Part shown: positions 49,752 to 62,306 of the stretch, piece by piece
Layout: each line of letters begins with the position of its first letter
How positions within the stretch are numbered: position 1 is the stretch's first letter
DNA from: Sporosarcina psychrophila
Lineage (GTDB): Bacteria > Bacillota > Bacilli > Bacillales_A > Planococcaceae
Direction of reading: 5' to 3'
NCBI RefSeq assembly: GCF_001590685.1
Contig: NZ_CP014616.1
Span: 4,277,001 to 4,341,000 of the forward strand
Length of the DNA stretch: 64,000 nt
The notes under the pieces: generated by a model
What the model was told of the DNA's origin: nothing
Seen by the model: the letters and a program-made list of their open reading frames with translations, nothing else
The model's database searches: none
Made by a program: the position numbers and the translations under genes

Positions 49752-49788
49752 GCGAGGGCTACCGGTCTTTACGACCGGATGCCCTCTT
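49752..49788 (-). other. Strong intercistronic hairpin between narK and moeB
   Basis: GAGGGC (49754-49759) with GCCCTC (49781-49786), continued by CCGGTC/GACCGG around a 5-nt loop. It overlaps the narK stop region. There is no U run, so an mRNA-stabilising or processing hairpin is more likely than a terminator. Confidence 0.6.
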
Positions 49789-51280
49789 AGCCTCGCGGCG
49801 TTATATCACTGAATGTGCCGACGTAACGAGTTACATCTCCGGAACCATCCTTCACCGCGCTAATTGACAGCAGTTCAAGGTATTCTTCGCCATTTTTGCG
49901 TTTATTCCATATTTCACCTTGCCATAATCCATCTTGACCAATTTGACTCCACATAGACGTGTAGAATTCTTTCGAGTGTCTACCTGAACTGTACATATTC
50001 GGATTACTTCCAATCACTTCTTCTTCGGTATATCCTGTCAGCCTTGTAAAAGCAGGATTCACAGACTGAATTGTTCCCGAAGCATCTGTTACAAGAATCC
50101 CTTGACCCGTTGAATTGAAGACTTCTGCAGACATGCTAAGTCGATCCATATAATAAAGCCAAATGACAAGGACCAAGCTCGCAAGTGCAACTTGAGAGAA
50201 TGCCATGAAACCGATTGAATAGGAACCTGTCATCGAATGAATAATGGATAGTAGTAAAGGTGGGAAGAATCCTCCAAGCCCCCCCATCATCGATACAATC
50301 CCATTAGCAATTCCAGCTTGTTTGTTGAAGTAAAACGGAACGAGTTTGAAGATTACACCATTACCTATTCCTGCTGCAACAGCAATTAACATACTTCCCG
50401 CTGTATATAATGCAATAGTAGGTGAAAACGCGAGAATAATAGCCGCAAATGTAAGTCCCGCAAAGACACCCATCAATAAGAACAACGGTTGGAATTTGTC
50501 AGCAAGCCATCCTCCGACCGGGCGCAGGAATGTTGCCACTGCAATGAAACCCGCAGTCCGCATTCCTGCATCCACTTTTTCCAGTTCGAAGTACGTGACC
50601 AAAAAGTTCGGTAAAAATATTGTAAATGCAACAAATGAACCGAATGTAATGAAATAAAATAATGAGAAGAACCACAGTTTTTCATTTTTATAAACGCCTT
50701 TAATTTGCTCAAGTATCGGTGTTTTCACTTTCACTTCTTGCTTGTCACCAAATATGAAATTCAAGGCCGCGAAGATAAGCAACAGTACGAGATAGAATTT
50801 GACGGTCATTGACCAACCGACTTGTGTGGCAATTACCGGTGCAGCAAACGTTGAAATTGCAGTACCCATATTCCCCATACCGTAAATACCATTGACGAGA
50901 CCATGCTTCTCTTTCGGGTAATACTTAGGTAGCGATGTTACACCCACTGAGAATACAGCCCCCCCGATTCCGAGGAACGTACCGCCAACGATCAAATCCG
51001 CGAACGTTGAAGCAGCACTTATGTAAAATACCGGAAACAGGAGTAATATGAAACTCACAAAAAAGATAATTCTTGCGCCAAATATATTTGCATAATAGCC
51101 AAGTGGAATTCTAAGGATAGATCCCAAAACGACCGGAACAGCAGTTACAATCGCAAGTTTTTCGGCAGGAATAGCAATATCTTCCCGGATGAATGGCAAT
51201 AGTGAGGATATGAGTACCCATACCATAAAACCGACTACTAAGTTCGCCGTCTGTAATGGAAGTTGTAATTTTTTATTCAT
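49787..51280 (-). CDS. narK: NarK-type nitrate transporter fused to a C-terminal PAS domain
   Basis: 497 residues, about 100 more than plain Bacillus NarK. Residues 1-390 are a 12-helix MFS transporter of the nitrate/nitrite family, with the nitrate signature GIGGAVFSVGVTSLPKYYP near 108 and the second-half GIGNGVIFKLVPFYF near 305. Residues about 392-497 are a complete PAS domain (FNSTGQGILVTDASGTIQ, VNPAFTRLTGYTEEEVIG, LWQGEIWNKRKNGEEYLE, VGTFSDIT), and the protein ends right after it. The frame is uninterrupted. The gene imports nitrate or exchanges nitrite for the narGHJI enzyme nearby; the PAS part would be cytoplasmic and could sense or recruit. Start ATG at 51280; dyad at 51390 upstream. 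Confidence 0.88.
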   Translation of the reverse strand: MNKKLQLPLQTANLVVGFMVWVLISSLLPFIREDIAIPAEKLAIVTAVPVVLGSILRIPLGYYANIFGARIIFFVSFILLLFPVFYISAASTFADLIVGGTFLGIGGAVFSVGVTSLPKYYPKEKHGLVNGIYGMGNMGTAISTFAAPVIATQVGWSMTVKFYLVLLLIFAALNFIFGDKQEVKVKTPILEQIKGVYKNEKLWFFSLFYFITFGSFVAFTIFLPNFLVTYFELEKVDAGMRTAGFIAVATFLRPVGGWLADKFQPLFLLMGVFAGLTFAAIILAFSPTIALYTAGSMLIAVAAGIGNGVIFKLVPFYFNKQAGIANGIVSMMGGLGGFFPPLLLSIIHSMTGSYSIGFMAFSQVALASLVLVIWLYYMDRLSMSAEVFNSTGQGILVTDASGTIQSVNPAFTRLTGYTEEEVIGSNPNMYSSGRHSKEFYTSMWSQIGQDGLWQGEIWNKRKNGEEYLELLSISAVKDGSGDVTRYVGTFSDITPRG

Positions 51281-51389: not shown

Positions 51390-51403
51390 AAGGGTTTTCC
51401 CTA
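51390..51403. promoter_or_regulatory. Candidate NreC-type dyad before narK
   Basis: AAGGG-TTTT-CCCTA, one base from the perfect TAGGG-N4-CCCTA dyad seen before ric. It is centred about 116 bp upstream of the narK start codon. The same pattern before narG and ric suggests one regulator, most simply NreC encoded nearby. Confidence 0.55.
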
Positions 51404-51725: not shown

Positions 51726-52253
51726 TTAAAGAATCGAGGTATATAATTGTTCATAGAGTTTATCCTGCTCTTTGATATTGAGGATATTATTAACCATTAA
51801 AAATAGTACAGATTCTTCTTTCACAAAATGAACAGTGATAACCTCAAATGCTTCTGCGGCGTCTTGAACTACCTTCTTCATTTCCTCCAGCGTAAAGTGG
51901 TTTACATTACCGCGTGTGTGATGAAGAAAATGACCGATGTAGGCATCAATTTCACCATGTTCTTCCTCCGTTGCATTGACTGGTCCCTGTTCTGAACCGA
52001 CGTATTGGGCAAGCATTGGGAACAAAAATTCTTCTTCTTTGTCTGTATGATTCTTTAACGGTTCAATGAAATCAACGATGAGTTTCCGAAGTGACTTCAG
52101 TGCTTCATGGCCTTCTTTGACAGTATAGATATCCCGTTCAAAAGCCAGAACAATTGTATGCCAGCCACTCATTAAATACTCTAAATAGCGATGTTCATTT
52201 TCAAGCACACGTAAAGCTGGTAAGTCGAACTTGAACTTTTGTGCCTCAGCCAT
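51726..52253 (-). CDS. Hemerythrin-like domain protein
   Basis: About 175 residues, a four-helix bundle with diiron-type ligands: ENEHRYLEY (E..H) near residue 20, KNHTDKEEEFLFP (HxxxE) near 70, EEEHGEID near 100, and the late HFVKEESVLF (HxxxE) near 145. Hemerythrin domains bind oxygen or nitric oxide at a diiron centre. Start ATG 52253 with AAAGGTG upstream. It is 18 bp after nreC on the same strand, so it belongs to the narGHJI-nreABC group and may buffer or sense O2 or NO there. Confidence 0.85.
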   Translation of the reverse strand: MAEAQKFKFDLPALRVLENEHRYLEYLMSGWHTIVLAFERDIYTVKEGHEALKSLRKLIVDFIEPLKNHTDKEEEFLFPMLAQYVGSEQGPVNATEEEHGEIDAYIGHFLHHTRGNVNHFTLEEMKKVVQDAAEAFEVITVHFVKEESVLFLMVNNILNIKEQDKLYEQLYTSIL

Positions 52254-52271
52254 TTGAAACACACCTTTCTG

Positions 52272-52919
52272 CTAAAAGTTTAATAGTTTTTTACGTAACG
52301 CATATTCAACGAGTTCAGGCCTGCTTTTCAACTGTAGTTTTTCCATAATCCTAGCTTTGTGCGCTTCGACAGTCTTAACAGAAATATATAGTTTCTCTGC
52401 AATTTCTTTGTTTCCAAACCCTTTTGCCGCAAGCGGAAGAACTTCAATTTCGCGTTTTGTTAAGATCTTGAAAGGATCATCTTCAACCACTTCCGTGCCC
52501 TTTTTAACAAATTCACGGACAAGTGAAGTGGTCATAGCAGGATGAATATACGTATCACCGGCGTGAACTGTACGTATTGCGGCAAGTAATTCACCATCGG
52601 GCGCATTTTTTAGAACATAGCCCGATGCTCCATTTTTTAACACATGAAATAAATATTCTTCATCATCATGCATTGTCAAAATAAGAATTTTTGTTTCTGG
52701 AAAATCTTCATTAATTTTACCGGTAGCAATTAGACCGCTCTCTCCGGGAGGCATGCTTAAATCCAACAGCAATACATCTGGTCGGTACTTTGCGACTAAA
52801 GCATATGCTTCTAGACCATCTGCGGCAGTGGCAACGACTTCCATATCACTTTGGAAATTCAGGATATGCATAAATCCACTACGAACGACGGCGTGGTCAT
52901 CCGCAATAATTATTTTCAT
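52272..52919 (-). CDS. nreC: Oxygen/nitrate response regulator NreC
   Basis: 215 residues. Receiver domain: acidic pair IADDH near residue 5, phospho-Asp in VLLLDLSMP near 54, Thr in ILTMHDD and Lys in GYVLKNAPD. The C-terminal LuxR helix-turn-helix has [25 protein letters not shown] with recognition part [16 protein letters not shown]. NreC activates nitrate and nitrite reductase genes under anoxia. It overlaps nreB (ATGA type) and follows the nreA-nreB order of Staphylococcus. It probably binds the TAGGG-N4-CCCTA dyads. Confidence 0.93.
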
Positions 52920-53992
52920 TTGTTATCCTCCCCTTCCTCAGACGCTCTAAGTGGGATTTCCAATCGTACAGAAGTACCTTTACCAATACTCGATTGAATA
53001 ACGAACTGGCCATTCACCAGTTCTGCTCGTTCTCTCATTCCATAAAGGCCAAGACCTGTACCAATTGGATTGATTTTATTTTTATCAAATCCTGCACCCT
53101 TATCATTCACACTCAATTCAAGGTTTCCTGAACGTTCAAACAACCGAACGAAAACTTCATCCGTTTCTGCATACTTAAGCGCATTGAGAATGGACTCCTG
53201 GCAAATCCGATAGACAACTGTCTCAATTTCACCTTCATATCTTTTAGCTTCAAGTTCAGCAGTAAAATGAACGATTAATCCATAATTTTTCTCAATCCAT
53301 TTAAAATGTGTCCTAAAAGCAGCTTCGAGGCCAAGGTCATCTAAAGTAGCTGGTCGTAACTCAACAGACAAGTGACGAATATCATCCAGTAAACGCATCA
53401 ATGAGCCTTCCGCTTGTTGAATCTTTTTGAGTACTTCAGAATCGACATTCATGTATTTCAACACACGCAAGTCAACAAGGGAACTTAACATTTCCTGGGC
53501 TACGCTATCATGTAATTCCCTCGACAACCTCTTGCGTTCATCTTCTTGTGCTTTAATGACATTTTTCATCATGGTTTTCTCGTTAAGTGTTTCTTGTGTC
53601 TTGTACTGCTTCGTCAAATCTCTCAGCATGAAGACACGAATTCCATTTTCCTCATCGATGGTCTGATAACTTGCCGTGTACGGAGTTATTCCTTTGCCTT
53701 GCGTATCTAGGTAAACTTGAAATGAACTGAAATCTTTTTGTGGACTTACCAAATAGCAGGATAGGCATGTCTGAAGTTCCGATTCACTTGTATACCCTTT
53801 ACAAGACATGCAAATTGCTTTTACATCTCCCGCAATCATTCCATCCAGTACTTCCGCACCTATAATAAGTTCCGCTGTACTATTCATAGCAATTACTTTT
53901 CCAGCTGAGTCAAAAAAGAAGATGGCCTCAGCTGAATTGTCGTACATTTTCATTAACAAGTCTGTCAACTGAAAACTCCCGATTTGCATCAC
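52916..53992 (-). CDS. nreB: Oxygen-sensing histidine kinase NreB
   Basis: 358 residues, no membrane segment. The N-terminal PAS domain holds the oxygen-sensitive Fe-S cluster cysteines as C-x2-C-x11-C-x2-C (CMSC ... CLSC, near residues 60-78), exactly the NreB spacing. The kinase part has the HisKA_3 motif [17 protein letters not shown] near 155 and ATPase boxes NALKYAE and GTGLGLYGM. Oxygen destroys the cluster and shuts off the kinase. Start GTG 53992, overlapping nreA. It phosphorylates NreC. Confidence 0.94.
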
Positions 53993-54453
53993 TGTTTTAC
54001 CATCTCCTTATTATAATACGGACCGAATCTCAGGCCGACATGATTTATAAAGCCTGAAAATTCTTCTGCAGTCATCCTTTTTCCCTCTCGATAAGCTACA
54101 AGTAACACACCATGGACACGATTATATTTATAAAGAGGTATCGCTCCAAAACTTTTTAAGTCTTCTGCAACAATAATTGGATAGTTAAACAGATCCATTG
54201 AATCAAGTTCCAGGTCTCTATCGTGAACAAAAAATGGTTTTCCTGATTTAAAAACATGCCCTGCAACACCTTTTCCAGTTTGCAAAGTGATACGTTTATA
54301 TCGGTTGCTACGATTGCCTGTTACGTATTTCCATTTCTGGACGAAACGCATTTCCGCTGACTCAACAAGAGCCAGAGCGACAAAGTCGAAACCAAAAATC
54401 GATTGTAACCGTTCTATTTCTTGCTGATAATCAAATCTTAATTGTTCATCCAT
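53989..54453 (-). CDS. nreA: Nitrate-sensing GAF protein NreA
   Basis: 154 residues, one GAF domain: a helical N terminus (LRFDYQQEIERLQSIFGFDF) then GKGVAGHVFKSGKPFFVHD near residue 75 and GAIPLYKYNRVHGVLLVAYREGKRMTAEE near 110. In Staphylococcus NreA binds nitrate and releases its block on NreB. Start ATG with GGGAG upstream. First gene of nreABC, 51 bp after narI with a terminator-like hairpin between. Confidence 0.9.
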   Translation of the reverse strand: MDEQLRFDYQQEIERLQSIFGFDFVALALVESAEMRFVQKWKYVTGNRSNRYKRITLQTGKGVAGHVFKSGKPFFVHDRDLELDSMDLFNYPIIVAEDLKSFGAIPLYKYNRVHGVLLVAYREGKRMTAEEFSGFINHVGLRFGPYYNKEMVKQ

Positions 54454-54503: not shown

Positions 54504-55184
54504 TTAGTTTTCACGGTGCCTTCTATACAGGATATAGCTTCTTCCTACATAATTCAACGGTACACTCCAGACGTGAACCAATCTGGTAAACGGCCACATT
54601 GCAAAAATGAGGAACCCAGATAAAACATGAAGCTGAAATGCCAGTGGTACACCTATCATATAGGCACCTTCCGGTCGAAAAATCAGCAAGGAACGGAACC
54701 ATATTGAAATTGAACTTCGGTAATCAAATTCTGGCTGTGTAATACTAGTTGCAATTACACTGTACATACCGATGAATACGATGAACAGCAATAGAGAGTT
54801 GACGATTAAGTCTGATGCAGATGACAACTTACGTACGCTTTTTAATGCAAAACGGCGATATGTTAAAATAAACATCCCCGCAAATGTGACGACACCAAAA
54901 AATCCTCCACCCCAAACAGCGCCCATATGATACATATGATCACTAACACCAAGTGCTTGCGTCCATTCCTTCGGGACAGCAAGCCCCACGACATGGCCCG
55001 CTATTACAGGCATGATGCCAATATGGAACAGTAAACTACCTATCATCAGTTGTTTCTTTTCTATAAATTCACTTGATTTTGCAGTCCAGCCAAACTGGTC
55101 GTTCCGGTATCTGAAAATATGCCCTACAACAAATGTTGCCATACACAGATAAGGGAAAATGACCCATAGAAATTGATTAGCCAT
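54504..55184 (-). CDS. narI: Respiratory nitrate reductase gamma subunit NarI
   Basis: About 226 residues with five membrane segments and the histidines for two b-type hemes: GHIFRYR near residue 20, LLFHIGI near 52, MAGH/AGHVVGL near 63, and late FQLHVLSGF and RLVHVWSVP near 190-210. NarI takes electrons from menaquinol and passes them to NarH. Start ATG 55184, inside the end of narJ; an in-frame start 24 nt earlier is less likely. Last of narGHJI. Confidence 0.94.
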   Translation of the reverse strand: MANQFLWVIFPYLCMATFVVGHIFRYRNDQFGWTAKSSEFIEKKQLMIGSLLFHIGIMPVIAGHVVGLAVPKEWTQALGVSDHMYHMGAVWGGGFFGVVTFAGMFILTYRRFALKSVRKLSSASDLIVNSLLLFIVFIGMYSVIATSITQPEFDYRSSISIWFRSLLIFRPEGAYMIGVPLAFQLHVLSGFLIFAMWPFTRLVHVWSVPLNYVGRSYILYRRHREN

Positions 55185-55746
55185 TTGTAGGCGCCTCCTG
55201 ACGAGCACATGACTTAAAGGTTACCCTCATCCCCTTAATTAGATGGAAATAGGGACTATTATATTTCTCCAGCGCTTTTAACAGATGATATGTTCCGTCT
55301 TCCAAAACAGCGAGTAACATACCAAAACTTTGTTCTGCCCTCGGGTCACCTATCCATTCGCATGCGTAGATAAATTCACACATAAGCGGCAAGAAGTCGG
55401 AAAGTTCACCGTCTGGCATATTCAGGCCAAACATTTCATAAAGCACTTTTAATTTAGCAAGCATTTGACCGCGATCTTTCGCATCCTGATACTTTACGTA
55501 AGTCATGAACAGCGTTGAATCCGTTTGGAAATCAAACGTATATGTATACATTTCCTGGATATCATCAAAGCTGTAGTCATGCATTAACTCCCAGTAAGTT
55601 TTAATATGCACATACGCCGGATGGGAAGAGTCAACTGACTCTTCCATGACTGACGGATGAAAGTTTATCTTTTCCGGGTACGTAAGTTGCTGTGCGAAGA
55701 AGCCAAATGTGTGTTTTTCGTTATACAGCTTCTGCAGATCAATCAC
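55177..55746 (-). CDS. narJ: Nitrate reductase assembly chaperone NarJ
   Basis: 189 residues, helical TorD/NarJ fold. Typical segments: FGFFAQQLTYPEK near residue 15, EMYTYTFDFQTDSTLFMTY near 65 and DFLPLMCEFIYAC near 115. It holds NarG while the molybdenum cofactor and Fe-S cluster are inserted and is not part of the final enzyme. Start GTG at 55746 with GGGGGG upstream, overlapping the narH stop. Confidence 0.92.
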   Translation of the reverse strand: MIDLQKLYNEKHTFGFFAQQLTYPEKINFHPSVMEESVDSSHPAYVHIKTYWELMHDYSFDDIQEMYTYTFDFQTDSTLFMTYVKYQDAKDRGQMLAKLKVLYEMFGLNMPDGELSDFLPLMCEFIYACEWIGDPRAEQSFGMLLAVLEDGTYHLLKALEKYNSPYFHLIKGMRVTFKSCARQEAPTNG

Positions 55747-57343
55747 GCCAAATCCCCCCGTAAAAGTTCTCTTCGTAAATTTCTTTACCTGACTTCACTT
55801 GTGGTTGTGTACCACAACCATCACAGCTACTATCTTCTTGTTTTATACCTGCGTAGTTGTATGGACTTTCTGAAGTACCCATACTGTAGTCGCCCATTTC
55901 CACATAGCCTTCAGATCCTTGTGAACGGTATGCATTCATATGACCTTCTTTATGTGCTGTCGGGATAACAAAGCGATCTTCGTACTTTGCAATCGCCAGA
56001 AGTCTGTACATTGACTTCGTTTGATGAGCAGTCAGACCGACACGTTCTAGACGTGATTCATCGAATTCTTTACCAGATGACATGGCACGCATGTATGAAC
56101 GCATCATTGCCATTCTTTGCAGTGCACCTTTCACTGTTTCGGTATCTCCTGCTGTAAGCATATTTGCGAGATACTGAATCGGAATACGCATTTCCTCAAT
56201 TGCTGGGAAAATCATATCAGGATTCTTAATCGAGTCTTTACCTTCAAAATAGTTCATGATTGGGCTCAATGGCGGGACATACCATACCATCGGCAACGTG
56301 CGGTATTCAGGGTGAAGCGGGAAGGCAAGTTTATATTCAATTGCTAGTTTATAAACCGGTGAATTTTGTGCGCCTTCAATCCATTCTTCGGAAATACCAT
56401 CTTTTCTAGCCTGAGCAATAACTTCCGGATCATTTGGATCGAGGAATAAATCAATTTGCGCTTTGTACAAATCTTTTTCGTTCGGTGTAGAAGCCGCTTC
56501 TAAAACGCGATCTGCGTCATATAAAAGAACACCAAGATAACGGATTCTGCCTGTACACGTTTCAGAACAAACCGTTGGTAGTCCCGACTCAATCCTCGGG
56601 AAACAGAATGTACATTTCTCGGCTTTATTTGTTTTCCAGTTAAAGTAGACTTTCTTGTATGGACAACCGGTCATGCAATAACGCCAGCCTCGACACGCTT
56701 CTTGGTCTACGAGGACGATTCCATCTTCATCGCGTTTGTAGATGGCGCCTGATGGACAGGATGCCACACAACTCGGATTGAGACAGTGCTCACAGAGTCT
56801 TGGCAAGTACATCATAAATGCTTGTTCAAAGTTAAATTTAATTTCTTCTTCTATCTTTTCAATATTAGGATCCATTGGTCCCGTAATGTGAGCCCCAGCA
56901 AGTTGGTCTTCCCAGTTTGGGCCCCATTCTAGATCAATGTATTCTCCTGTCACAACAGACTTTGCACGAGCAACGGGCGTATGTTTACTGTCTGGTGCCG
57001 AAGTCAGTTTTTCATAGTCATATGTCCATGGTTCGTAATAGTCCTTCATTTCAGGCATATCCGGGTTATAGAAAATCTTCCCTAGAGCAATTTTTGATAG
57101 CTTCGAACCGGATTTCAATTCGAGTTTACCTTTTTTATTAATTTGCCATCCGCCTTTATAAAGCTCCTGGTCTTCCCAGCGTTTTGGATAGCCTATCCCC
57201 GGTTTTGTTTCGACGTTATTAAACCACATATACTCTGCACCTTCACGGTTTGTCCACGTCGTTTTACACGTAACACTACATGTATGGCAGCCAATACATT
57301 TATCCAGATTCATTACCATTGCAACTTGTGCTTTAATTTTCAA
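55739..57343 (-). CDS. narH: Respiratory nitrate reductase beta subunit NarH
   Basis: 534 residues. Four cysteine groups for Fe-S clusters: CIGCHTCSVTCK near residue 17, CEHCLNPSCVASCP near 185, CRGWRYCMTGCPYKK near 218 (the Trp-containing group that gives a 3Fe-4S cluster) and CTFC...CSETC near 244-262. NarH carries electrons from NarI to NarG. The C terminus has two extra CxxC-like cysteines (SSCDGCG). Start ATG, overlapping narG by 11 nt. Its N terminus has no signal peptide, as expected for a cytoplasm-facing complex. Confidence 0.96.
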   Translation of the reverse strand: MKIKAQVAMVMNLDKCIGCHTCSVTCKTTWTNREGAEYMWFNNVETKPGIGYPKRWEDQELYKGGWQINKKGKLELKSGSKLSKIALGKIFYNPDMPEMKDYYEPWTYDYEKLTSAPDSKHTPVARAKSVVTGEYIDLEWGPNWEDQLAGAHITGPMDPNIEKIEEEIKFNFEQAFMMYLPRLCEHCLNPSCVASCPSGAIYKRDEDGIVLVDQEACRGWRYCMTGCPYKKVYFNWKTNKAEKCTFCFPRIESGLPTVCSETCTGRIRYLGVLLYDADRVLEAASTPNEKDLYKAQIDLFLDPNDPEVIAQARKDGISEEWIEGAQNSPVYKLAIEYKLAFPLHPEYRTLPMVWYVPPLSPIMNYFEGKDSIKNPDMIFPAIEEMRIPIQYLANMLTAGDTETVKGALQRMAMMRSYMRAMSSGKEFDESRLERVGLTAHQTKSMYRLLAIAKYEDRFVIPTAHKEGHMNAYRSQGSEGYVEMGDYSMGTSESPYNYAGIKQEDSSCDGCGTQPQVKSGKEIYEENFYGGIWRD

Positions 57344-60300
57344 GCCAGTTTACCTCCTTCATCTTACGGACTGCAACGTACTCATCTCGCTGATTTCCGA
57401 TTGGTCCGTAGTAGTTGAATCCGTAACTGAGTTGCGCATAGCCGCCAACCATTTGCGTCGGTTTCATGTGAATTCGCGTCGGCGCGTTATGGCTTCCGCC
57501 TCGTTCCTCTGAAATTTCAGAGCCTGGTACTTGAATATGCTTGTCTTGCGCGTGATACATGAACATGGTTCCTTTAGGTATTCTGTGACTGACTACGGCA
57601 CGTGCAGTAACAACACCGTTTCGGTTGTAAACTTCAAGCCATTGGTTGTCGTCAATACCATGCTCTTCGGCATTTTCACTGGAAATCCAGACAGTCGGTC
57701 CCCCACGGAATAACGTCAGCATATGCTGGTTGTCCTGGTACGTCGTGTGGATATTCCATTTACCATGCGGCGTCAAATACCTAAGTACAAGTGAATCTTG
57801 ACCGCCTATGATTTTTTTGTCTCGCGGTCCGAATACCATTGGTGGAAGCGTCGGTTTGTAAACGGGTAGACCTTCTCCGAAATCCAGGAATAATTCATGG
57901 TCAATGTAGAAGTGCTGTCTTCCGGTCAATGTCCTGAACGGAACCAGTCGTTCGATATTTGTCGTAAAAGGCGAGTAACGGCGCCCGAGTTTATTCGAAC
58001 CGGAGAATACTGGTGTCGGTATGACTTCACGCGGCTGTGCAGTAATGCTTGCAAACGTGAAGCGCTCTGCCGCGCGATCGGCTGAAATATCTTTCAGTTC
58101 AACGCCGGTATCTGCTTCTACTGCTACGAAAGCCTTTTGAGAAACGCGACCATTCGTTGCAGAAGATAGTGTCAGCATTGCTTCTGCCGCATGTTTTGCT
58201 GTGTGCAGTTTAGGCAATCCGTTTTTGATAGATTCATCGAAATAGGTGCCGTTGATGCCCTTCATCATTTCATATTCATCGGCTACAGAAAAACTGACGC
58301 CGTGCGCTCCCACTTTACCAGTAGATAATAATGGTCCAAGCGTGACGTATTTATCATAAATTTGTGTATAATCACGTTCGACAATTGTCATAGCTGGCAT
58401 TGTTTTACCCGGTATCGCTTCAACTTCACCTTTTTTCCAGTCCTTCACTTCGCCATAAGGCTGAGCAATTTCCTGGATAGAATCATGCGCAAGTGGCGAA
58501 GTTACAAGGTCTTTATAAACGCCTGGAAGATGAACTTTTGCCATTTCCGAGAATGTTTCCGCAAGTGCGCGGTAAATATCCCAATCAGAACGAGATTCCC
58601 AAAGCGGGTCAACTGCTGGGTTGAACGGGTGAACAAATGGATGCATATCTGTTGAAGAAAGATCGTGTTTCTCATACCAAGTTGCTGCTGGAAGAACGAC
58701 ATCTGCGTACAACGGAGTTGTTGTCATTCTGAAATCCAGTGCCACAAGAAGATCGAGTTTTCCTTCCACATCATCGCGCCAAACAATTTCTTCAGGCTTA
58801 ACATCTTCATTTGGTGTTGCAAGCAGAGCGTGGGAAGCGCCGAATAAATGTTTCATAAAGTATTCCTGACCTTTTGCAGAACTCGACACTAAGTTGGAGC
58901 GCCAAACAAATAGAGAACGCGGGAAGTTTTCCGGTGCATCCGGATCTTCAATTGCAAATTTTGTTTCGCCTGACTTGATTTGTTCCAGTGTATAATTAAC
59001 GATTTCCTGTGTTGTTGTTTTTCCTTCTTTGGCTGCCTCTTCTGCAAACGTCAGGCTGTTCTTGTTGAACTGAGGGTAAGATGGCAACCAACCAAGTCGT
59101 GCAGCCAAGACGTTATAGTCTGCAGGATGCTGATAGCGGGCTTTTCCGCCTGTCGGTGACATAAGAAGATCCGCGCCCATTTCCTCGTACTTCCATTGAT
59201 CAGTTGCAAAATAGAAATAAGATGTCGCGTTTTGAAGTCGCGCCGGCGCTTGCCAGTCACGTGCAAATGCGATTGTGCTCCACCCTTCAATCGGACGGCA
59301 TTTTTCTTGACCAACGTAATGGGCCCAGCCACCACCATTAACGCCTTGACAACCAGTTAACATAACGAGGTTAAGGATCGATCTATAAATGGTGTCACTG
59401 TTAAACCAGTGGTTAATACCTGCACCCATAATAATCATCGAACGGCCGCCTGTTTCAAGCGCATTATGTGCAAATTCCCGCGCGATTTGGGTAACCAGTT
59501 CAGGTTTAACACTTGTGATTTTCTCCTGCCATGCTGGCGTGTAGAATGATTCTGCGTCGTCATAACCAGATGCTTCGAGTTCACTACCAATCCGGTTAAC
59601 ACCATACTGGCTAAGCATCAAATCGTGAACAGTTGTTACAAGACTTTCGGTTCCGTCTGCAAGTGTTACTTTTTTCACCGGAATCGGACGTTTGAATGTT
59701 CCGTTTGACACGTTGTCGAAGAATGGGAAAACAATTTCTTTCCATTCCGCGCCATGATCGGCCACTGACAAGGCCGGTTCAACGCGTGTTCCGTCTACAT
59801 TATCAAGAATTAGATTCCACTTCTTGTCCTCTTCCCAACGTTGTCCCATCGTACCGTTCGGAACAATAATTTCATTTGTCGTTTCATCAAAAATAACCGG
59901 TTTCCACTCAGCGTGCTGGGATGCTTGCCCTATATCACTTGCCCGTAAAAATCGACCCGCTTTATAAGAATCTTCATGTGTATCGAGTGTTATTAGGAAA
60001 GGCATATCTGTATATTGTTTCGCGTAATTCAAGAACATCGGCTCTTTACGCTGTTCATAAAATTCATCGAGAATGACGTGCGTCATTGCTTGAGCAACTG
60101 CAGCGTCCGTTCCGGGATTTGCCGCAATCCAGTCATCCGCATGCGTAACACTTTCTGCGTAATCCGGGGCCACAGAAACTACTTTCGTCCCTTTGTAGCG
60201 CACTTCTGTCATGAAGTGAGCATCTGGCGTTCTTGTTAGCGGTACATTCGATCCCCACATAATGATGTAACCAGCGTTAAACCAATCACTCGATTCAGGG

Positions 60301-61007
60301 ACGTCTGTCTGCTCACCCCAAATTTGTGGAGAAGATGGCGGTAAATCCGCATACCAGTCATAGAAGCTAAGCATTTCGCCGCCAAGAAGAGAGAGGAATC
60401 GTGCACCTGACGCATAGCTGACCATTGACATTGCCGGAATCGGTGTAAATCCAGCTATCCGATCGGGACCGTACTTTTGGATTGTATAAATAAGCTGTGC
60501 CGAAATCATTAAGGTTGCATCTCTCCAGTTAACCCGGACATGGCCGCCTTTGCCACGCGCTTTTTTATATTCATCTGCCTTATCAGGATCTTCTACGATG
60601 CTAGCCCATGCTTTTACAGGGTCTTTCAGTTCAGAAACTGCTTTAGTCCACATACGCCATAACTTCCCTCGTATGTATGGATACTTCACGCGAAGCGGGC
60701 TATATTCATACCAGGAAAATGAAGCTCCACGAGGACATCCACGCGGTTCAAATTCAGGCATATCAGGGCCACATGAAGGATAATCAATTTGCTGGTTTTC
60801 CCAAGTAATAATGCCGTTTTTCACAAATACTTTCCAACTGCATGACCCTGTACAGTTCACGCCATGCGTTGTCCGAACCACTTTGTCATGAGACCAACGT
60901 TGGCGGTACATATTTTCCCAATCTCGACTTTTTTCTTCTAAAATTGACCAATTTCCTGAAAAACGTTCAACTGGCTTGAAATAATTAAGTCCAAATTTTT
61001 TCTTCAT
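57333..61007 (-). CDS. narG: Respiratory nitrate reductase alpha subunit NarG
   Basis: 1224 residues, full length. N-terminal FS0 cluster ligands THGVNCTGSCSWK with a further Cys in GCPRG near residue 92 (His-C-C-C set); the molybdenum Asp region IMWGSNVPLTRTPDAH near 255; and the molybdopterin-binding domain at the C terminus (HNAPTRIHMKP). It reduces nitrate to nitrite at the inner face of the membrane. Start ATG with AAAGGAG upstream. First gene of narGHJI; two tandem dyads 21 bp apart lie about 110-140 bp before the start. All cofactor genes it needs are within 18 kb. Confidence 0.97.
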   Translation of the reverse strand: MKKKFGLNYFKPVERFSGNWSILEEKSRDWENMYRQRWSHDKVVRTTHGVNCTGSCSWKVFVKNGIITWENQQIDYPSCGPDMPEFEPRGCPRGASFSWYEYSPLRVKYPYIRGKLWRMWTKAVSELKDPVKAWASIVEDPDKADEYKKARGKGGHVRVNWRDATLMISAQLIYTIQKYGPDRIAGFTPIPAMSMVSYASGARFLSLLGGEMLSFYDWYADLPPSSPQIWGEQTDVPESSDWFNAGYIIMWGSNVPLTRTPDAHFMTEVRYKGTKVVSVAPDYAESVTHADDWIAANPGTDAAVAQAMTHVILDEFYEQRKEPMFLNYAKQYTDMPFLITLDTHEDSYKAGRFLRASDIGQASQHAEWKPVIFDETTNEIIVPNGTMGQRWEEDKKWNLILDNVDGTRVEPALSVADHGAEWKEIVFPFFDNVSNGTFKRPIPVKKVTLADGTESLVTTVHDLMLSQYGVNRIGSELEASGYDDAESFYTPAWQEKITSVKPELVTQIAREFAHNALETGGRSMIIMGAGINHWFNSDTIYRSILNLVMLTGCQGVNGGGWAHYVGQEKCRPIEGWSTIAFARDWQAPARLQNATSYFYFATDQWKYEEMGADLLMSPTGGKARYQHPADYNVLAARLGWLPSYPQFNKNSLTFAEEAAKEGKTTTQEIVNYTLEQIKSGETKFAIEDPDAPENFPRSLFVWRSNLVSSSAKGQEYFMKHLFGASHALLATPNEDVKPEEIVWRDDVEGKLDLLVALDFRMTTTPLYADVVLPAATWYEKHDLSSTDMHPFVHPFNPAVDPLWESRSDWDIYRALAETFSEMAKVHLPGVYKDLVTSPLAHDSIQEIAQPYGEVKDWKKGEVEAIPGKTMPAMTIVERDYTQIYDKYVTLGPLLSTGKVGAHGVSFSVADEYEMMKGINGTYFDESIKNGLPKLHTAKHAAEAMLTLSSATNGRVSQKAFVAVEADTGVELKDISADRAAERFTFASITAQPREVIPTPVFSGSNKLGRRYSPFTTNIERLVPFRTLTGRQHFYIDHELFLDFGEGLPVYKPTLPPMVFGPRDKKIIGGQDSLVLRYLTPHGKWNIHTTYQDNQHMLTLFRGGPTVWISSENAEEHGIDDNQWLEVYNRNGVVTARAVVSHRIPKGTMFMYHAQDKHIQVPGSEISEERGGSHNAPTRIHMKPTQMVGGYAQLSYGFNYYGPIGNQRDEYVAVRKMKEVNWLEN

Positions 61008-61114: not shown

Positions 61115-61149
61115 TAGGGATGTGCCTATTTGATGTGGGGAATACCCTT
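61115..61149. promoter_or_regulatory. Tandem NreC-type dyads before narG
   Basis: TAGGG-ATGT-GCCTA (61115-61128) and TGGGG-AATA-CCCTT (61136-61149). Each departs slightly from TAGGG-N4-CCCTA. Their starts are 21 bp apart, two helical turns, so two dimers would sit on the same DNA face. They lie 108-142 bp upstream of the narG start codon. Confidence 0.6.
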
Positions 61150-61516: not shown

Positions 61517-62215
61517 TCACAGTGCGACCCGGACACGGTCGAATAAGTTGTTATTTTCGAGATGGACATGTTCAAATGTGTCTTTTTCAAGTTGTGCAAG
61601 ACGTGCGTACACGAGTCTATACGTTCCACAGGCTTCGTCTGGTAGCGTGAAATTATTCGTTAGATCACGTATTTCAAATAATAATTTACCTGCGTGTTCG
61701 TGCTCTTGCTCAAGTTCCGTTACAAGCGGCTTAACCTTTTCTTTCAATTCAGGTGTAGGATTTTCTAAAAACTCCAGAATTAGCGGAAATACGTTGGCAT
61801 CTTCGTCTGCCGTGTGATCAAGAAGTTCACTTCGTAATTCTTTAAAAATCTCTTGAACGCGAAGTAGATGCGGATGATTTTCTCCATGGACACGGGCAAC
61901 CTTTGTAATGTACGGTGCGAGAAGCGGTAATTCTTCCCGTAGCCCAGTATGATACTTTTCTTGAATATAGGAGACGAGCGTTTTTGAACCGAATGACGTT
62001 GGATCGATGCCACTTTGCTGCTCGCGTTTCTCCTCTATTTTTTTGACACTATTTAGAACCTCTTCAGGATTGAGTTTTCGTTCTTTAGCTGCATCTTTAA
62101 GAGCAATTTTTCCACCGCAACAGAAATCGATGCGCAAACTTCTAAACAAATCAGCACTTTGAGGGAGCTCCGTGACGATATCACAAACTTGTGTATCAAG
62201 TGTTAGTCGACTCAT
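61517..62215 (-). CDS. ric: Iron-sulfur cluster repair di-iron protein RIC (ScdA/YtfE)
   Basis: 232 residues. N-terminal ScdA_N domain with the FCCGGK cysteine pair near residue 32; C-terminal hemerythrin-like di-iron domain with ligands HGENHPHL near 108, LLDHTADEDANVFP (HxxxE) near 132, EQEHEHAG near 168 and HVHLENNNLF near 218. RIC restores Fe-S clusters damaged by nitric oxide or oxidants, by-products of nitrate/nitrite respiration. Start ATG with GAGGAGGAAA upstream. Upstream lie a Fur-type box (62243) and a perfect NreC-type dyad (62293), consistent with control by iron and by nitrate/anoxia. Confidence 0.94.
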   Translation of the reverse strand: MSRLTLDTQVCDIVTELPQSADLFRSLRIDFCCGGKIALKDAAKERKLNPEEVLNSVKKIEEKREQQSGIDPTSFGSKTLVSYIQEKYHTGLREELPLLAPYITKVARVHGENHPHLLRVQEIFKELRSELLDHTADEDANVFPLILEFLENPTPELKEKVKPLVTELEQEHEHAGKLLFEIRDLTNNFTLPDEACGTYRLVYARLAQLEKDTFEHVHLENNNLFDRVRVAL

Positions 62216-62292: not shown

Positions 62293-62306
62293 TAGGGTTT
62301 GCCCTA
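62293..62306. promoter_or_regulatory. Perfect NreC-type dyad before ric
   Basis: TAGGG-TTTG-CCCTA, the exact inverted repeat that defines the motif also found before narK and narG. Its centre is about 85 bp from the ric start codon, upstream of the Fur-type box. Confidence 0.6.

Follow-up and report, generated by a model that had tools for sequence, protein, structure and literature searches.

On its minus strand, the window analysed here, a stretch of 64,000 nucleotides from Sporosarcina psychrophila, contains an unbroken ATG-start frame of 497 amino acids without internal stop, which we refer to as narK-PAS (Table 1). Pfam assigns residues 15-339 of its product to MFS_1 (E 3.6e-41) and residues 393-494 to PAS_9 (E 2.4e-18), and finds no domain C-terminal of the PAS, which extends over approximately residues 386-496. 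An earlier note on this DNA had described a single 497-residue frame in which a complete NarK is followed by a complete PAS domain as the C-terminal part, with nothing behind it. Frame and Pfam agree with this description; the coordinates were right as well, and only the strand had been left out. A sequencing error or assembly join that hides a stop between the two parts can be ruled out, because the same full-length, stop-free frame is found in 81 of 261 genomes of the host's family and in 65 of 399 genomes sampled from the class.

Table 1. Features of the narK-PAS locus and of the region upstream of narG (window coordinates)
Feature	Position	Strand	Basis
narK-PAS (narT-PAS) gene, 497 aa	49787..51280	-	frame, Pfam, relatives with the same frame
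C-terminal PAS, residues 386-497, NifL/MmoS type	49790..50125	-	Pfam, sequence and fold matches
Codon of PAS FAD marker N459	49904-49906	-	alignment
Codon of PAS FAD marker W444	49949-49951	-	alignment
Helix 355-390, predicted to run without a break from TM12 into the PAS N-cap	50111..50218	-	model and alignment
NarK/NarT-type MFS transporter part, residues 1-376	50153..51280	-	Pfam, site residues, fold match
NreC-box-like palindrome TAGGGAAAACCCTT, 1 mismatch, ~110 bp upstream of narK-PAS	51390..51403		
Hemerythrin-domain protein, next gene upstream of narK-PAS, often conserved in the cluster	51726..52262	-	Pfam, relatives' loci
nreC, response regulator	52272..52919	-	Pfam, NCBIfam, relatives' loci
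nreB, sensor kinase, CxxC-11-CxxC in N-terminal part	52916..53992	-	sequence, Pfam
nreA, nitrate-sensor GAF protein	53989..54453	-	Pfam, NCBIfam
narGHJI, respiratory nitrate reductase operon	54504..61007	-	named by sequence and order
NreC-like palindrome, 1 mismatch, ~108 bp upstream of narG	61115-61128		
RIC/ScdA/YtfE-like gene (similar to di-iron proteins of iron-sulfur repair)	61517-62215	-	inspection
Perfect TAGGGN4CCCTA, 78 bp before the start of the RIC/ScdA/YtfE-like gene	62293-62306		

The usual gene order at such loci is narGHJI, nreABC, hemerythrin gene, narK-PAS and molybdenum-cofactor genes. As the earlier note had stated, nreB ends 1.6 kb upstream of narK-PAS. The hemerythrin gene, which here separates nreC from narK-PAS, is conserved in many loci, including those of staphylococcal type. 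The palindrome in front of narK-PAS deviates at one position from TAGGGN4CCCTA, which we take to be the NreC-box consensus. Palindromes of this kind, with two mismatches at most, are found within 400 bp upstream in 41 of 77 relatives, versus about 8 in shuffled sequence, and would fit separate transcriptional control of narK-PAS by NreC. Two further palindromes lie near narG, one of them a perfect match in front of the RIC/ScdA/YtfE-like gene, which is a possible NreC target.

A NarT-type nitrate transporter with a PAS domain

NCBIfam detects NarK (TIGR00886) at residues 13-337 of the product, with a score of 206.8 bits that remains under the curated cut-off of 311.7. This cut-off is also missed by a staphylococcal NarT-type protein (215.7 bits) and by another NarK of the Bacilli (260.6 bits), and therefore leaves this branch of the family uncovered. 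The name NarK rests instead on fold, site residues and tree. Among solved structures, those of E. coli NarK and NarU (PDB 4u4w, 4jr9, 4iu8) come closest in fold to the transporter part, although the identity is only about 21% and the E. coli proteins have no PAS domain. Seven residues, F49, R89, F147, N175, Y263, F267 and R305, form the substrate site of E. coli NarK (PMC4432589). In an alignment with this protein, mapped by hand, all seven are shared and correspond to F18, R57, F110, N137, Y209, F213 and R253 of the narK-PAS product, and they are invariant among 19 diverse fusions. Judging by these residues, the carrier part looks competent for transport.

In a transporter tree of 74 rows, all fusions share a single clade with staphylococcal NarT and with four further lineages that have no PAS (L102, L103/L104, L106 and L109). 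This clade of 65 rows stands apart from the other NarK proteins of the Bacilli with a support of 99, in what is a quick tree with long-branch warnings. Staphylococcal NarT, which is controlled by NreC, shares 53-57% identity with narK-PAS over the transmembrane part and has the same operon context, but ends after TM12. The narK-PAS product is best explained as a member of the NarT branch within the NarK family, serving nitrate transport for respiration.

The fusion is present in close relatives, where the earlier note had suggested looking for it, and far beyond. The family copies have 72-96% identity and always form a single open frame. None of the 261 family genomes showed a close NarK without PAS, apart from G224, whose copy is broken; distant NarK-like proteins with 34% identity are present in G110 and G116. 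The genomes with the fusion in the class sample come from eleven families of Bacilli, and the genera represented among the best 80 loci include Sporosarcina, Planococcus, Psychrobacillus, Paenibacillus, Shouchella, Cytobacillus, Metabacillus, Halobacillus and Salimicrobium. Outside the Bacilli, no match at 1e-80 was obtained among 398 genomes sampled across the phylum.

Some loci depart from the common pattern. In G224, which belongs to the same genus as the host, the frames of nreB and moeA in the nitrate cluster (L131/L054) are broken or shortened as well; the assembly is 83% complete and 9% contaminated, and the broken frames may be poor sequence. G388 has two narK-PAS genes (L105, 6362-7870 and 12242-13747) flanking nreBC/nreA-like genes, and a third copy without PAS elsewhere (L106). 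In G004 (L042, 1205-3250 and 7777-9303), the narK-PAS/moeB/mobA region is partially duplicated in tandem, with a truncated narK-PAS and chimeric neighbours. In L085, L086, L102, L106 and L113, narK-PAS or its PAS-less relatives lie not beside narGHJI but beside a small ferredoxin-like protein and a molybdopterin oxidoreductase of about 720 amino acids, perhaps another nitrate reductase.

The presence or absence of the PAS requires six changes on the transporter tree. With PAS-less relatives as outgroup, the simplest reading is one gain and five later losses, on a quick tree with some long branches and with a count of changes that does not itself tell gain from loss. The PAS tree, which has 110 columns and little resolution, does not reject a single origin (the constrained tree is 8.4 log units better than the free search, p-AU 0.74), and we have set separate origins aside. 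The nearest PAS domains outside the fusion, with 46-59% identity, belong to PAS-GGDEF-EAL proteins of Bacilli (L126, L127, L212), consistent with the earlier remark that the PAS is of a type usually followed by GGDEF and other domains. In these proteins, the PAS is N-terminal to the c-di-GMP enzymes, whereas in narK-PAS it is C-terminal.

The PAS pocket and its link to the membrane part

The best PDB sequence matches of the PAS domain are MmoS (3e-25) and NifL (5e-15), with Aer further down; all of them are FAD redox sensors. For the predicted structure (pLDDT 87.6), the FAD-PAS of NifL is the top fold match (rmsd 1.1, TM 0.86; Z 19.6 in a second fold search), and nearly all of the next best are flavin PAS or LOV proteins. 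According to a large survey, a tryptophan in helix F is the primary determinant of FAD binding in PAS domains, an asparagine characterises both the NifL and the Aer clusters, with a histidine in the latter, and the Trp and Asn pair is named for the NifL-like FAD cluster 4 (PMC10468136); W70 and N85 of Aer have also been described (PMC9668731). In the fusions, the helix F tryptophan (W444, aligned with that of MmoS and NifL) and the asparagine at the flavin-bonding position (N459) are both invariant in 107 of 107 aligned sequences. The pair is common to NifL PAS1 (2gj3), MmoS PAS-A (3ewk), the PAS of Aer (8dik) and narK-PAS. The histidine position of the Aer clusters (clusters 9 and 14; AerC, Aer) is taken by P427, a proline in 106 of 107 fusions, and the arginine position of Aer and MmoS by F490. 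The PAS of narK-PAS thus differs from Aer and MmoS by the missing His and Arg, both of which NifL lacks as well.

Other cofactors agree poorly with the sequence. There is no histidine in helix F (residues 437-450), and the nearby H435 is a glutamine in 89 of 107 fusions. Because of the missing helix F histidine, a heme PAS of the FixL type is unlikely. The 497-residue protein has no cysteine at all, which excludes a LOV domain with its photoactive Cys, an NreB-type Fe-S PAS with its four Cys ligands, and a thiol switch. From the sequence and fold matches together with W444 and N459, the domain probably binds FAD. Of the ligands that the earlier note listed for PAS domains in general, heme, flavin and small ligands among them, the choice can be narrowed to flavin of the FAD type, with heme unlikely.

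The full-length model (pLDDT 84, pTM 0.73) predicts one helix from residue 355 to residue 390, in which TM12 runs into the PAS N-cap. The length of this linker is constant: W374 to T398 spans 25 residues in 107 of 107 aligned fusions. In Paracoccus, NarK1-NarK2 likewise joins a NarK transporter to a second domain, but there the second domain is another transporter and the linker is of variable length (PMC5217062). The PAS is under purifying selection, with a median dN/dS in Sporosarcina of 0.037 for the PAS and 0.011 for the transporter (46 usable pairs). We also screened for transporter positions that are conserved wherever the PAS is present but differ in lineages without it. No position was consistently changed in this screen, and a PAS-contact surface was not detected: one position reached three of the five PAS-less lineages, versus 11 in control lineages with PAS.

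Redox gating and competing explanations

That oxygen shuts down nitrate transporters has been known for more than 40 years. The inactivation of respiratory nitrate transporters by oxygen has been described as having an unknown mechanism; for mycobacterial NarK2, the control point is the transporter and the signal is the redox state rather than oxygen, but Cys mutants were unaffected and no quinone site was found (PMC3445494).

Our analysis suggests a model in which a built-in flavin redox sensor gates the nitrate transporter through the continuous TM12-PAS helix. The cytoplasmic C-terminal PAS would hold FAD in a NifL-like pocket. During oxygen respiration, the cell would be oxidised, and the oxidised FAD form would keep the transporter closed or slow. 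As the cell turns reduced, FAD would be reduced with it, and the PAS sheet and N-cap would shift. This shift would travel along the uninterrupted helix to the C-bundle of the transporter and allow transport. That FAD occupies the pocket, in which direction control runs and by which path it is coupled are inferences; the computed basis of the model consists of the conserved fusion with its intact transport site, the linker of fixed length, the FAD markers and the purifying selection. On balance, we lean towards this model, and towards redox gating of transport as such to the same degree. The earlier note had considered direct gating by redox, oxygen or ligand, of which redox is the best-supported reading with a PAS of the FAD type, and heme is unlikely. 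Several findings count against the model. The screen of transporter positions revealed no contact surface for the PAS. The PAS has been lost about five times, and transport itself therefore does not need it. The His and Arg of Aer and MmoS are missing from the pocket, although this is also the case in NifL. Moreover, NarK proteins without PAS are oxygen-inhibited, too, and the PAS is thus not the general mechanism of oxygen inhibition.

An unlikely alternative, if the first to be considered, is that the PAS mainly serves dimerisation or docking, either as a homodimer or on NarGHI for the hand-over of nitrate, with a flavin pocket that is structural or unused. PAS domains often form dimers, this one has no output domain after it, and the transporter gene sits with narGHJI in most loci. 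However, if no ligand is bound, it is difficult to see why W444 and N459 never vary, and the fusion is also found away from narGHJI.

It is quite improbable that the PAS reports the transport state to NreB or another PAS-containing partner and thereby tunes transcription, even though nreABC is adjacent in most loci and NreC-like boxes precede narK-PAS. A full sensor pocket is retained, which counts against such a role. Furthermore, the fusion lies directly behind narI, without nreABC, in L084, L089 and L115-L118. Among 19 genomes checked, NreA is undetectable in eight that carry the fusion, and several have no clear full-length NreB, only distant kinases. Conversely, NarT has no PAS in staphylococcal-type loci, although these keep narGHJI, nreABC and, in some cases, the hemerythrin gene. 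Since fusions exist without nreABC or NreA, and PAS-less NarT keeps NreABC, neither the PAS nor the Nre system requires the other. The fusions without NreA or clear NreB leave unsupported the idea that the PAS serves solely as a partner of NreB or NreA, and the NreB partner that the earlier note had offered as an alternative has lost ground.

We consider it very unlikely that transport is gated in response to a ligand other than FAD in the PAS, such as FMN or a small metabolite. PAS pockets are diverse, the Aer/MmoS His and Arg are missing and LOV FMN domains are close fold matches, but the Trp and Asn signature and the best matches indicate FAD. That the PAS has no function and is simply tolerated as a harmless extension is hardly credible: this would agree with about five independent losses and with a genome of the genus (G224) that has only a broken copy, but not with the purifying selection on the PAS, the invariant pocket residues and constant linker, or the retention of the domain across eleven families.

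To return to the redox-gating model, the known outputs of related FAD-PAS sensors are NifA (for NifL), a kinase and a chemoreceptor, while the output of narK-PAS would be a transporter. Both domains are known. In the open-access papers searched, however, we found no description of the NarK-PAS fusion, of how widely it occurs or of its conserved FAD signature. Whether a FAD sensor in the same polypeptide switches the respiratory nitrate transporter across the Bacilli, as a direct mechanism of redox (oxygen) inactivation with the transporter as a NifL-type output, is in our judgement evenly balanced. If true, a NifL-type sensor would act on a carrier and not on a kinase. A relative of NarK with a FAD redox PAS in one chain is a concrete candidate for the sensor, for one large class of bacteria at least, and staphylococcal NarT and the four other PAS-less lineages are its natural controls.
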